From assembly GCA_028291285.1 (NCBI GenBank), contig JAQGIJ010000269.1, positions 1 to 5,499 on the forward strand: a stretch of DNA of 5,499 nt, in the 5' to 3' direction. The notes under the pieces are model-generated. The model ran no database searches, was not told the DNA's origin, and worked only from the letters and a program-made list of their open reading frames with translations. Shown here piece after piece: positions 1 to 5,499 of the stretch. Every line of letters begins with the position of its first letter. Positions within the stretch are counted from its first letter, which is position 1. The translations under genes were made by a program, and so were the position numbers. The DNA comes from Phenylobacterium sp. (GTDB taxonomy: Bacteria; Pseudomonadota; Alphaproteobacteria; Caulobacterales; Caulobacteraceae).

Positions 1-495
1 AGGACCTGGGAGGCGACCACCCGGCACAAGGAGGCGGAAGGCTCCTCCTACTACCGGCACTTCCACATGGGCCTGCTGCGCGAGGACGGCGCGCCCAAGC
101 CCGGGCTGGAGGTCTACGCCGACTACGCCGCGCAGATGGGCCTCTGCCAGTGGTTCCACTTCGAGGACCACCGGCTGGACGAGGCCGTGGCCTGGATGAA
201 GCGGCTGGGCGTGAAGCACCTGCGCACCGGGCTTTCCTGGGCCGACAGCTTCAGGCCCAACGCGCTGGCCTGGTTCGACCGGCAGATGGAGGCGCTCGCC
301 GACTTCGAGGTGACGGTGACTTTCTGCTTCACCCCCGAGCACCGCGGTATCGAGCCGCACCACACCAGCCCGCCGCAGGCGGCCGAGGAGTACGCCGGGT
401 TCTGCGCCGACATGGTCCGCCGCTATGCGCCCCAAACCGCCCGACCCGTCGACGCCCAGCCCGCCCGCGGCGCGCGGGCCGTGGCGGCGGAATGA
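1..495 (+). CDS. Glycoside hydrolase-like protein (beta-xylosidase-like TIM barrel), C-terminal part only
   Basis: The gene enters the window already open, so its start lies upstream; 164 codons are visible before TGA at 493-495. Visible residues about 15-34 (SSYYRHFHMGLLREDGAPKP) resemble the last strand and closing segment of a retaining glycoside hydrolase barrel of the beta-xylosidase/GH39-GH5 style. Residues 46-143 then look like the beginning of such a barrel: strand 1 (MGLCQWFHFED, 46-56), helix, strand 2 (VKHLRTGLSWAD, 71-82), helix, strand 3 (VTVTFCFTPEHRG, 104-116), HHTSPP, and a helix ending MVRRYAP (138-144). The stop comes about 20 residues later, just where a fourth strand carrying the acid/base Asn-Glu-Pro motif would be expected. 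The tail (145-164) is Ala/Pro/Arg-rich and probably disordered. The likely role is acting on a sugar or glycan; the substrate is unknown and no catalytic glutamate can be assigned in the visible part. One base separates it from the phosphatase gene, suggesting translational coupling. The family call is from motif memory and moderately sure. Confidence 0.55.
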   Translation, partial: RTWEATTRHKEAEGSSYYRHFHMGLLREDGAPKPGLEVYADYAAQMGLCQWFHFEDHRLDEAVAWMKRLGVKHLRTGLSWADSFRPNALAWFDRQMEALADFEVTVTFCFTPEHRGIEPHHTSPPQAAEEYAGFCADMVRRYAPQTARPVDAQPARGARAVAAE

Positions 496-496
496 G

Positions 497-1021
497 ATGG
501 ACGGGGGCCTCGCCCCGGACCTGACCTGGATTACCGGCGACCTCGCGGTCGGCGGCTACCTGCCGCCGGGCGCCGCGGCGCTTTTGGCCGCAGGCCACGG
601 GGTCGGCTACGTCGTCGACATGCGCGCGGAGGCCTGCGACGATGCCACCGAGCTCGCCGCTTCGGGGTTGAAGTTCGTGCGCCTGCCCACGCCCGACCAC
701 CACGCGCCCACCCAGGACCAGCTCGACGAGGGCGTGGCCTTCGCCGAGGCCGCGCGCGCCGCGGGCGCCAAGATCCTGATCCATTGCCAGCACGGCATCG
801 GCCGCTCCGTGACGCTCGCCCTCTGCGTCCTGGTCGATCGCGGCTTGCAGCCGCTTGCGGCGTTGGCCCGCGCCAAGGACGTTCGCGAGCTCGTCTCGCC
901 GAGCCCGGCGCAGTACGAGGCCTGGGCGGCGTGGATGCGCCGCCGCGCGCCCTGGACCGCCATTCCGCAGTTCGAGGCCTTCACGGCGATCGCCTACCGC
1001 CATCTGGCGGCGCGGGCCTGA
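497..1021 (+). CDS. Dual-specificity-type Cys phosphatase
   Basis: A 174-residue protein with the signature P-loop of Cys-based phosphatases, HCQHGIGRS at residues 96-104. The nucleophile would be Cys97 and the phosphate-binding arginine Arg103 (CX5R), followed by Ser104. Asp67 in LPTPDHHAPT, 30 residues before the Cys, is well placed as the general acid. The N-terminal part (LTWITGDLAVGGYLPPG, 9-25) matches the usual opening of compact dual-specificity phosphatases, and the length fits a single catalytic domain with no signal peptide or membrane segment, so it should be cytoplasmic. The start was chosen at 497 rather than the in-frame ATG at 425: the earlier start would overlap the hydrolase gene by 71 bases and add a Pro-rich tail-like stretch unlike a phosphatase, whereas 497 sits one base after the upstream stop. 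The substrate could be a phosphoprotein, a phosphosugar or a nucleotide-like intermediate. Its place directly before a PRTase/kinase-like gene favours a role in the same pathway, but that is inference. Confidence 0.85.
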   Translation: MDGGLAPDLTWITGDLAVGGYLPPGAAALLAAGHGVGYVVDMRAEACDDATELAASGLKFVRLPTPDHHAPTQDQLDEGVAFAEAARAAGAKILIHCQHGIGRSVTLALCVLVDRGLQPLAALARAKDVRELVSPSPAQYEAWAAWMRRRAPWTAIPQFEAFTAIAYRHLAARA

Positions 1022-1022
1022 G

Positions 1023-2759
1023 ATGCTGGTCTACGGCGACCGCGCGCGGGCGACCACGCCCCGGCAGATGCTGCGGGAGATCACCAGCGTGCTGCGCGCC
1101 GCGGAGGCGGCGCAGCCCGGGCCGGGGCGCCACGACCTCCTGACCCACGCCTTCATCGAGGCCGCCTGCCTGACCCAGGGCGTCGCCGACGCAGAGTTCG
1201 AGGCGCGCGGGGCGGACGACCTCTCCATGGGCCAGGACGCCTGCCTGGCGCTCCTGCTGATGCTGGCGCGCAAGCTCACGGCCTCCGCCTGGAGCGGCTT
1301 CGCCGCGATCGGGCCCGGCGTCGCCCCCGAGCTGATGTCGCTGGCCGTCCAGCCGTTGCCCGAGGCGATCTCGGTCAGGACGCCGGAGGGCTACGCCTTC
1401 TATGCGGTCTATCCCGAAGCCTATCTCAAGGCCGCCGCCGAGCATCCCTGGCCGGCAACCCCGCTGGTCATCGGCCTGCGCAGCATCGGAACCGGCCTGG
1501 CGGCCCTCGTCGCCGCCGTCACCGGCGCGCGCACCGTCATCACGCTGCGGCCCTGCGGCCACCCCTTCCGGCGCGAGCTGAGGGTCTCCGACCAGCTCCG
1601 CGGCCTGCTCGCCGCCCACGACGGCCCGTTCGCCATCGTCGACGAAGGCCCGGGACTTTCCGGCAGCTCGTTCGGCGCCACGGCCGACCTGCTGGAGAGC
1701 CTGGGCGTGGCGGAGGATCGGATCGTCTTCCTGCCGAGCCATCGCGGGGACCTCGGCCCCGAGGCCGATCCGCGGCATCGCGCGCGGTGGAGCCGCGCCG
1801 CGCGGCCGGTGGCGACCTTCGAGGACCTTGCCGCCGAGCTTCCGCTGGCGGACTGGTTCGCCGACCTCACGGGCCGGATCGAGGCGGTGGAGGACCTCTC
1901 CGGCGGCGCGTGGCGCAGCACGCTGGCCCTGCCCGCCGAGGCCATGCCGCCGGCCAACGCGGCGCAGGAGCAGCTGAAGTTCCGGCTCCGCACCGCCTCC
2001 GGCTGGTGGCTCGCCAAGTTCGCCGGGCTCGGGGCCACGGGCGCGGCCAAGTTCGAGCGCGCCAAGGCCCTGCACCGCGCCGGCTTCACGCCCGAGCCGC
2101 TGGCGCTGCGGCGCGGCTTCATCCTGGAGCACTGGGAGGACGGGGCGCCGGGCGCCGCCGTGGAGCGGGCGCGGCTGGTGGAGCACCTCGCCGCCTACCT
2201 CGCCTTCCGCGCCGCCGCCCTGCCCGTCGAGCCCGGCTGCGGCGCCAGCCTCGATGAGCTCGGGGAGATGACCCGGGTCAACCTGCGGGAGACCTTGGGC
2301 CCCGGCGCCGAGGCGCGGGTCGGCCCCCGGCTGGAGGCCGCCGCCGCCGCGCCCCCCGCCCGCCCGGTCCACATCGACGGCCGGCTGCACGCCTGGGAAT
2401 GGCGGCTGACGCCGGACGACCTGCTCCTGAAGACTGACGCCGTCGACCATTCCTGCGCCCACGACCTGGTGGGCTGCCAGGAGATCGGCTGGGACGTGGC
2501 CGGCGCCCGCCTCGAGTTCGACCTCGACGATGAGGAGACCGCCCACCTCTGCGACGCGGTCGAGCAGGCGACCGGCGAGCGGCCTGACCCTGCGCGCCTC
2601 GCCTTCTTCGACTTCGCCTATCCGGCGTTCCAGGCCGGCTGGTGGCGGATGGCCGAAGAGGCCGCCGCCGCGGAGGAGCGCGCCCGGCTCGGCGCCTGCG
2701 TCGAACGCTATGTGCGGCGCCTCGCCAAGCTCGCGGGGGCCCCGGAATCGGCCGACTAA
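1023..2759 (+). CDS. Predicted phosphoribosyltransferase fused to an APH/kinase-like domain
   Basis: A 578-residue protein; I know no characterised relative. Residues 1-140 are mostly helical with no motif I recognise. Residues 147-240 look like a type I PRTase core: a hydrophobic strand and loop (LVIGLRSIGTGLAALVAA, 148-165), a basic segment (HPFRRELRVSDQLRG, 180-194), then a PRPP-loop-like motif IVDEGPGLSGSSF (205-217) with acidic Asp207-Glu208 and a Gly/Ser phosphate-binding turn. From about 315 a kinase-like fold of the aminoglycoside phosphotransferase type appears. Lys332 (WWLAKFAG) is a candidate ATP lysine, Glu345 a candidate helix-C glutamate, FILEHWEDG (367-374) is hinge-like, VHIDGRLHAWEW (449-460) resembles an HxD catalytic loop with Asp452, and LLKTDAVDH (468-476) offers Asp472 as metal ligand. 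The asparagine usual five residues after the catalytic Asp is replaced by Ala457. The start at 1023 is one base after the phosphatase stop; an earlier in-frame start at 855 would overlap that gene deeply. Domain calls rest on motifs only; the PRTase is the firmer one. Confidence 0.55.
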   Translation: MLVYGDRARATTPRQMLREITSVLRAAEAAQPGPGRHDLLTHAFIEAACLTQGVADAEFEARGADDLSMGQDACLALLLMLARKLTASAWSGFAAIGPGVAPELMSLAVQPLPEAISVRTPEGYAFYAVYPEAYLKAAAEHPWPATPLVIGLRSIGTGLAALVAAVTGARTVITLRPCGHPFRRELRVSDQLRGLLAAHDGPFAIVDEGPGLSGSSFGATADLLESLGVAEDRIVFLPSHRGDLGPEADPRHRARWSRAARPVATFEDLAAELPLADWFADLTGRIEAVEDLSGGAWRSTLALPAEAMPPANAAQEQLKFRLRTASGWWLAKFAGLGATGAAKFERAKALHRAGFTPEPLALRRGFILEHWEDGAPGAAVERARLVEHLAAYLAFRAAALPVEPGCGASLDELGEMTRVNLRETLGPGAEARVGPRLEAAAAAPPARPVHIDGRLHAWEWRLTPDDLLLKTDAVDHSCAHDLVGCQEIGWDVAGARLEFDLDDEETAHLCDAVEQATGERPDPARLAFFDFAYPAFQAGWWRMAEEAAAAEERARLGACVERYVRRLAKLAGAPESAD

Positions 2760-2774
2760 GGGAGACCTGCCCAC

Positions 2775-2778
2775 GAGG
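2775..2778 (+). promoter_or_regulatory. Ribosome binding site for the TTG-started glycosyltransferase gene
   Basis: GAGG lies 8 bases before the TTG at 2787, a normal Shine-Dalgarno distance. A second purine run, GGGAGA, lies just after the preceding stop but is over 20 bases from the TTG, too far to serve it. The site supports TTG 2787 as the start, since no ATG gives a better N-terminus: MRFALIKGQSQYGS begins directly with the first strand of the nucleotide-binding fold. Confidence 0.6.
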
Positions 2779-2786
2779 TCCGCCGC

Positions 2787-3959
2787 TTGCGCTTCGCACT
2801 CATCAAAGGCCAGTCGCAGTACGGCTCGCTGCGGCTGCACGTCGACCAGCTGGCGCAGGCGCTGGCCGCGCTCGGCCACGAGGCGCGCGTCGTCGACATG
2901 AGCGCGGACGACCGCCAGGACCAGCTGAATGCCGCAACCCTGGCGCGGCCGGACTGCTTCTTCGGCTTCAGCGGCGTCGGCTGCGACCTGAAGGCGGGCG
3001 AGGCCTCGGCCTATGACGTCTGGGGCTGCGCCTATGCCTCGCTGTACGTCGACAATCCCGTGCACCACCTGGCGCGCCTGCAGACGCCGATCCGCAAGCA
3101 CGTCGCGCTGTTCCTCGACCGCAACCACCTGCAGTTCGTCAACGCCTCGCCCTTCGCCCGCGGCGTCGCCCAGCTGGGCTTCGTCCCCCCCGGCGCCAAC
3201 GAGCTGCCGGAGCCGCCGGACCTTTCCGACGAGGCCTTCGCCCGGCGCGACATCCCGGCGATGTTCACCGGCACCTATCGCGGCGCGCCGCAGACGCCCT
3301 GGCGTGAGTGGCCGGACAGCCCCGCGAGAACCGTGGCCGACGGGATCGCCGAGCGGATGGCGGCGGACGCCCGGCTGTCGATCCTGGACGCGCTGCGCGC
3401 CGTGCTGCGCAGCCTAAGCGCCGAACTCACGCCGCAGCTCTTCAGCGACATCGCCCCCCTGCTCTCCGGTCCGCAGTTCTTCGCCGAGGCCTACCACCGC
3501 GACGCGGTCCTGCAGGCGCTGGGCTCCGCGGGCGTGGCCCTGCACATCTGGGGCAATGGCTGGGAGCCGCTCGCCCAGCGCTACCCGTCCTTCGTCTACG
3601 GCGGCGTCGGCAGCTTCGCCGAGACCCTGCATACGCTGCGCCGGGCCAGGGTGGTGCTGAACATCAACAACGGCTTCACCGCCGGAGGCCACGAGCGGGT
3701 GTTCACCGCCATGTGCGCCGGCGCGGCGGTGTTCTCCGACGCCAATCCCTATTACGACCAGGCCTTCAAGGACGGGCGCGAGATCGTCACCTTCGCCTGG
3801 CCGAAGCTGGCCGAGGCGCCGGACCGCCTCGCCGCCCTGATCGCCGACGAGGCCCGCGCCGCGGGGATCGCCCGCGCCGGCGCCACGAAGGCGCAAGCCG
3901 AGCACCGCTGGACCGAGCGCGCGGGGCGGCTGGTCAAGGCGGTGAAGCAGGCGGCGTGA
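2787..3959 (+). CDS. CgeB-type glycosyltransferase
   Basis: A 390-residue predicted glycosyltransferase of GT-B fold. Its C-terminal domain matches the CgeB/Glyco_trans_1_2 type: RARVVLNINNGF (286-297), then GGHERVFTAMCAGAAVFSD (300-318) with Glu303 at the conserved glutamate position expected to contact the donor nucleotide sugar, then NPYYDQAF (320-327). The N-terminal half begins with a strand and helix (MRFALIKG, then LRLHVDQLAQALAALGHEARVVDM, about 15-38) typical of the acceptor-side Rossmann domain, and LYVDNPVHHL (86-95) is the loop often seen in this group. HIWGNGWEPL (253-262) joins the domains. There is no signal peptide or membrane segment, so it should act in the cytoplasm or at the inner membrane face. 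The start is TTG, supported by a GAGG site. It follows the PRTase/kinase-like gene by 27 bases and is probably the last gene of the operon. CgeB relatives glycosylate spore coat, capsule, flagellin or other surface polymers; donor and acceptor here are unknown. The family call is confident, the target is not. Confidence 0.85.
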   Translation: MRFALIKGQSQYGSLRLHVDQLAQALAALGHEARVVDMSADDRQDQLNAATLARPDCFFGFSGVGCDLKAGEASAYDVWGCAYASLYVDNPVHHLARLQTPIRKHVALFLDRNHLQFVNASPFARGVAQLGFVPPGANELPEPPDLSDEAFARRDIPAMFTGTYRGAPQTPWREWPDSPARTVADGIAERMAADARLSILDALRAVLRSLSAELTPQLFSDIAPLLSGPQFFAEAYHRDAVLQALGSAGVALHIWGNGWEPLAQRYPSFVYGGVGSFAETLHTLRRARVVLNINNGFTAGGHERVFTAMCAGAAVFSDANPYYDQAFKDGREIVTFAWPKLAEAPDRLAALIADEARAAGIARAGATKAQAEHRWTERAGRLVKAVKQAA

Positions 3960-3983
3960 GGCGGCGGCGAAAGACACGCCCCC

Positions 3984-4022
3984 AGCCGAGGCGCAGCACA
4001 GCGCCGAGGCCGACGCACGGCT
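3984..4022. terminator. Weak inverted repeat in the convergent gap, possible bidirectional terminator
   Basis: The 63-base gap between two facing genes contains GGCGC (3990-3994), a six-base loop, and GCGCC (4001-4005). Outside it AGCCG (3984-3988) can pair with CGGCT (4018-4022), though the connecting arms are unequal (1 and 12 bases). There is no T-run on either side, so it is not a standard intrinsic terminator. In GC-rich DNA such short palindromes arise easily; position is the main argument. Confidence 0.25.
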
Positions 4023-5474
<1,452 letters not shown>

Positions 5475-5483
5475 CGGGTCGGT

Positions 5484-5487
5484 CTCC
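5484..5487 (-). promoter_or_regulatory. Ribosome binding site of gltD
   Basis: Read on the - strand, GGAG lies 9 bases before the ATG at 5474-5472. It decides the start in favour of this ATG over the in-frame TTG at 5489, whose codon overlaps the site. Only 25 bases upstream of the ATG are in the window, so no promoter can be assessed. Confidence 0.7.
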
Positions 5488-5499
5488 AAACTCTAGAGG

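Follow-up and report, generated by a model that had tools for sequence, protein, structure and literature searches.

A phosphatase and a predicted phosphoribosyltransferase-kinase fusion protein as a candidate tailoring module of an inositol-linked gene cluster in alphaproteobacteria

O-ribosylation in the biosynthesis of butirosin and ribostamycin is carried out by a pair of proteins, the phosphoribosyltransferase (PRTase) BtrL and the phosphatase BtrP. Here, we describe a 5,499-nt stretch of DNA from Phenylobacterium sp. (Caulobacteraceae; assembly GCA_028291285.1, contig JAQGIJ010000269.1, positions 1 to 5,499 of the forward strand), hereafter called the window, in which a gene for a cysteine phosphatase of the dual-specificity (DSP) type directly precedes a gene for a 578-residue protein with PRTase-like and kinase-like parts, hereafter called the fusion. 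The coordinates and classes of these genes in an original prediction, made from the DNA alone, agree with the open reading frame positions and profile matches. We find that the window shows the edge of a much bigger conserved gene cluster, the rest of which lies outside it; this is why the original prediction missed the cluster and its inositol-phosphate synthase. By analogy, the phosphatase and the fusion could form a tailoring module of an inositol/methylated oligosaccharide cluster, with the product first phosphoribosylated and then dephosphorylated. We hold this reading tentatively, at a little under an even chance; its support comes from predicted folds, from active-site residues and a cluster that are both conserved, and from genome surveys in which the module depends on the core cluster.

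A search of Pfam and NCBIfam with the fusion gave no match at E ≤ 1, and searches of solved structures by sequence (E ≤ 5) and by profile (E ≤ 10) were empty, so the fold assignments depend on AlphaFold models. The model of the 578-residue protein (pLDDT 95) contains two predicted folds, a type I PRTase fold and a choline-kinase/APH-like fold, in line with the two parts originally proposed. Searches returned 2737 relatives at E ≤ 0.001 from 7996 scored candidates, and the string VDEGPGLSGSS was nearly invariant in 71 aligned sequences. Judged from this number of relatives and the near-invariance of the residues resembling a phosphoribosyl pyrophosphate (PRPP) loop, a chance origin of the motif and the family is excluded. 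An intact fusion frame of 582 residues is present on pSymB of Sinorhizobium meliloti 1021, at positions 253338-255086. No clear case of a stand-alone PRTase relative was seen among the 120 listed of 165 proteins (E ≤ 0.001), many of which are fragments or partial records; the same list holds relatives of the PRTase part labelled Myxococcota, Thermoanaerobaculia, Gemmatimonadales, and Betaproteobacteria.

Within the predicted PRTase domain, both the acidic pair and the small phosphate-binding residues of a PRPP loop are present (D207, 68/71; E208, 71/71; S213, 70/71; G214, 69/71; S215, 68/71; S216, 68/71), and their spacing appears to exceed that of the usual motif by one residue. Residues R153, S154, G156, R176, G179, and R184 are kept in all 71 sequences. 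In the kinase-like domain, the same is true of D452, E459, K470, D472, D475, H476, H480, Q486, W490, and D491, while residue 332 is K or R throughout. A profile comparison with 30 APH-family proteins aligned D452 with the catalytic Asp, weakly (probability 5.5%, E 0.0069); the Pfam APH profile matched 0 of the 71 family members at E ≤ 1.

The structures closest to the PRTase domain by Z were PyrR and PRPP synthetase, and structure comparison gave a stronger match for the kinase-type fold, where many invariant polar residues lie. These observations would fit a different arrangement, in which the PRTase domain is a PyrR-like regulatory sensor of PRPP or nucleotides that controls the kinase domain, an inositol or sugar intermediate is phosphorylated, and the phosphatase reverses this step. 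We consider such a sensor unlikely: the arginines resembling those of the pyrophosphate and flexible loops and the PRPP-loop acids are kept in all or nearly all 71 sequences, which exceeds what a sensor needs, and the metal-binding Asn of kinases appears, in a weak alignment, not to be conserved.

The phosphatase matched the DSPc profile (47.8 bits versus a cut-off of 33.5), and the residues of its HCx5R signature are H96, C97, and R103 in alignment numbering. Phosphatases of the window type (E ≤ 1e-20) were found in 10 of 199 genomes of a family-level sample; all 10 genomes also have the fusion, with the phosphatase immediately upstream of it in each. Among fetched loci, the phosphatase was present at 12 of 33 fusion loci and at none of eight loci selected by the methyltransferase model TIGR04290, one of which (L113) belongs to a genome with a fusion elsewhere. 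Of the two outcomes named with the original prediction as speaking against it, absence of a PRTase or kinase fold from the predicted structure and rare co-occurrence of the genes, neither was observed for the phosphatase-fusion pair: the two genes travel together, and the model of the fusion contains both folds. The window glycosyltransferase is the least conserved part and was found at 1 of the 33 other fusion loci fetched (L053). That locus repeats the order glycosidase, phosphatase, fusion, glycosyltransferase, gltD, with the core cluster on the far side of the glycosidase.

To relate the pair to the core cluster, TIGR04290 was counted in family-level (199 genomes) and phylum-level (299 genomes) samples, both of which include genome G001 and possibly other shared genomes; the first-look survey scores some candidates per genome. 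At the family level, the fusion was found in 14 genomes, TIGR04290 over its cut-off in 16, and both in 12. The fusion without TIGR04290 was seen in G803, whose protein is divergent (35% identical to an Azospirillum protein; locus L063), and in G805, which retains remnants (L064). Four genomes (G719, G754, G838, and G956) had TIGR04290 without the fusion; their core genes are present, and the fetched stretch contains neither a fusion nor a DSP phosphatase. At the phylum level, the fusion was found in seven genomes and TIGR04290 in 10, and all seven fusion genomes have TIGR04290 (in G532 on a separate contig). Fisher P values, uncorrected for kinship, were 2.8e-14 (family level) and 3.0e-12 (phylum level). 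Four further genomes carry a fusion without an adjoining TIGR04290 gene, which lies elsewhere in G003, G075, and G1061 and is absent from the draft genome G1062. The fusion was also found in 1 of 150 order-level and 3 of 385 class-level genomes (G001 counted), and in 5 of 101 genomes of a second family. Since the core cluster also occurs in some genomes that lack both phosphatase and fusion, these two genes resemble an optional tailoring module added to that cluster.

The cluster comprises genes for an inositol-3-phosphate synthase, a histidine phosphatase, TIGR04290 and TIGR04295 proteins, epimerases, a UDP-xylose synthase, glycosyltransferases, and an unusual glycosidase. At loci L025 and L026, the inositol-3-phosphate synthase scored 528.2 bits with TIGR03450 (below the cut-off of 638) and the histidine phosphatase 161 bits with His_Phos_1; the NCBIfam models closest to the latter, MSMEG_4193 and alpha-ribazole phosphatase, both remained below cut-off. 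Epimerase-type proteins, a GT4, and PF13524 glycosyltransferases are encoded there as well. At the same two loci, the TIGR04290 methyltransferase (384.7 bits versus a cut-off of 300), the TIGR04295 B12 radical-SAM protein (708.2 versus 400), and a UDP-glucuronic acid decarboxylase (345.8 bits) were recognized. At least two tabulated core genes were present in the fetched stretch at 26 of the 33 fusion loci other than the window. Seven loci fell below this level: L052 (a stretch of 3.7 kb with the inositol-phosphate synthase and the short-chain dehydrogenase/reductase of the cluster), L006 (glycosidase alone), L007 and L034 (both short contigs), L028, L063, and L101. These counts take in close relatives (such as L029/L030 and L002/L057), the decayed cluster L064, and the split-fusion locus L033. 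Based on its gene content, the cluster product is probably an inositol-containing, methylated oligosaccharide or glycoconjugate.

The epimerases, dehydrogenases, and several glycosyltransferases of the cluster could also be taken to mean that the fusion does not ribosylate the product directly and instead yields a ribose-derived sugar donor, or a small phosphorylated metabolite, for use by the glycosyltransferases. Core clusters that lack the fusion have the same glycosyltransferase types, so no glycosyltransferase is visibly fusion-dependent, and we regard this alternative as improbable. A role in defence was rejected, as none of the four proteins compared with PADLOC defence models (phosphatase, fusion, glycosyltransferase, and one cluster glycosidase) gave a match at E ≤ 0.1.

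Under the tailoring-module reading, the PRTase domain would transfer 5-phosphoribose from PRPP to the cyclitol or sugar product, at a hydroxyl or an amine; the 5-phosphate would then be stripped by the DSP-type phosphatase, or in other lineages perhaps by the histidine phosphatase, so that the ribosyl group stays; the kinase-like domain may phosphorylate or merely bind the same acceptor, and the cluster glycosyltransferases would finish the molecule. It is still reasonable to infer, in line with the original prediction, a glycan-related product that is phosphoribosylated first and dephosphorylated afterwards. Several observations weigh against this reading. The PRTase domain had no Foldseek match below E 0.001 (best among the matches listed, 1.0e-3), and unrelated folds also appear further down its list, at low probability. 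In the weak APH alignment (probability 5.5%), the residue opposite the Asn of HxDxxxxN varies (A in 31, R in 17, P in 6, and others, of 71). The DSP phosphatase is missing from 4 of the 14 fusion genomes of the family-level sample, where a different phosphatase would be needed. The fusion occurs without TIGR04290 in G803 and in the draft genome G1062. Finally, the sampled genomes are related, so the Fisher values overstate independence.

Table 1. Coordinates of features in the window
Feature	Position	Strand	Basis or remark
Cluster glycosidase, C-terminal 164 aa; gene extends beyond the window	1..495	+	
Cys phosphatase, DSP type	497..1021	+	DSPc profile, HCx5R signature; partner of the fusion
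PRTase-kinase-like fusion, 578 aa	1023..2759	+	
PRTase domain, residues about 121-265	1383..1817	+	predicted structure
PRPP-loop-like motif, residues 203-217 (FAIVDEGPGLSGSSF)	1629..1673	+	71-sequence alignment
Choline-kinase/APH-like domain, residues about 266-573	1818..2741	+	predicted structure
D452 (71/71), candidate catalytic Asp in the kinase-like domain	2376..2378	+	weak profile alignment
PF13524-type glycosyltransferase, accessory	2787..3959	+	Glyco_trans_1_2 profile
gltD, convergent	4023..5489	-	TIGR01317, 718.3 bits

The glycosidase, phosphatase, fusion, and glycosyltransferase genes of the window (Table 1) are separated by 1, 1, and 27 nt, and the glycosyltransferase matched Glyco_trans_1_2 with 71.3 bits (cut-off 25). 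The cluster glycosidase (window positions 1-495; L025:11030-11953), whose relatives are 74-85% identical and annotated as beta-xylosidase, opens with the WNEP acid/base region and has at its C-terminus what would normally be the first barrel strands. In native order, its alignment with PslG (18.1 bits, E 0.012) fell into two stretches whose order was inverted, and the second was insignificant alone (-0.1 bits); once reordered, it gave a single collinear stretch of 31.3 bits (E 1.2e-6). With hhalign against 25 GH39 proteins, the gain was modest (40.0 native, 48.1 reordered), and rotations at four other points scored 35.9, 44.0, 44.0, and 47.0; these are unclean negative controls, since the C-to-N junction is restored in them too. 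In Pfam searches, the native N-terminus aligned to the middle of the GH39, GH53, and Glyco_hydro_cc profiles, and reordering improved the matches little. Judged from these alignments, the glycosidase looks like a GH39-like barrel that has undergone circular permutation in nature.

Several individual loci differ from the rest. At L033:9935-11439, at the far end of the cluster, the fusion gene is broken across frames into three pieces, through sequencing error or as a degraded gene. The divergent relative at L063:9271-10989 lies without a core cluster and possibly represents a second subfamily with another role. Two adjacent frames of 348 aa at L101:55-1101 and 1273-2319 (G003) share identical first 40 residues, an assembly artefact or a tandem duplication. 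At L064:8670-9811, a decayed inositol-phosphate synthase gene adjoins glycosidase and fusion remnants, a joint loss of the set. The Sinorhizobium cluster at L024:6728-9203 has an extra polysaccharide pyruvyl transferase gene and a gene annotated as coenzyme F420 hydrogenase, the latter overlapping the end of the convergent glycosidase gene. In the open-licence literature, we found no paper on TIGR04290, TIGR04295, or the cluster, nor on BtrL/BtrP chemistry; SMb20231, among the locus tags SMb2023x, is named in a table of one paper, and the butirosin passages of PMC6804068 treat resistance and cluster layout.

These results provide two predicted folds, a partner gene, and a reaction that can be tested for a large family without a Pfam or NCBIfam model. 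The intact pSymB copy of S. meliloti 1021 could offer a way to identify a metabolite or glycan of rhizobia, Azospirillum, and Caulobacteraceae. A broader proposal, which we consider doubtful, is that alphaproteobacteria, including S. meliloti 1021, make a class of inositol-centred methylated oligosaccharides from a conserved cluster of at least a dozen genes, with the fusion and phosphatase adding ribose or phospho-ribose and with a permuted glycosidase.

Among known proteins, the fusion shares its predicted fold and the PRPP-loop-like acidic pair with type I phosphoribosyltransferases (PyrR, APRT, XGPRT, and PRPP synthetase), but differs from them in its helical N-terminal extension, its attached kinase-type domain, and the lack of a Pfam or Protein Data Bank sequence match. 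With choline kinase LicA and the APH kinases it shares a predicted fold, matched over about 261 residues, whereas the APH profile match is missing; in the weak profile alignment, a putative counterpart of the HxD Asp is kept and the Asn place of HxDxxxxN appears variable. TIGR04290 and TIGR04295 (B12_rSAM_oligo), both over their cut-offs in L025, mark the core cluster, but they are hypothetical-equivalog labels for single proteins, while the fusion has no model and is absent from some TIGR04290 clusters. The original prediction had drawn a link to the biosynthetic operons of tellurite (Ter) stress systems, as the combination of PRTase, phosphatase, and ATP-type enzyme resembles published predictions. 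The enzyme classes are alike in outline, but no Ter gene is annotated in three annotated fusion neighbourhoods, where the partners are glycan and inositol genes, and none of the 71 family members matched a PRTase profile, whether of the Ter type or not; a stress metabolite system like that of Ter is therefore very improbable. A likeness in outline is to BtrL/BtrP, a PRTase and a phosphatase that serve a cluster with a cyclitol-based product; the fusion cluster has an inositol-3-phosphate synthase. In contrast to that pair, the predicted PRTase is here joined to a domain of the kinase type and has a DSP-type phosphatase as its partner, and the surroundings include a methyltransferase, a B12 radical-SAM protein, and PF13524 glycosyltransferases. 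If the tailoring-module reading is true, PRPP-dependent O-ribosylation would reach past the aminoglycoside antibiotics from which it is known.

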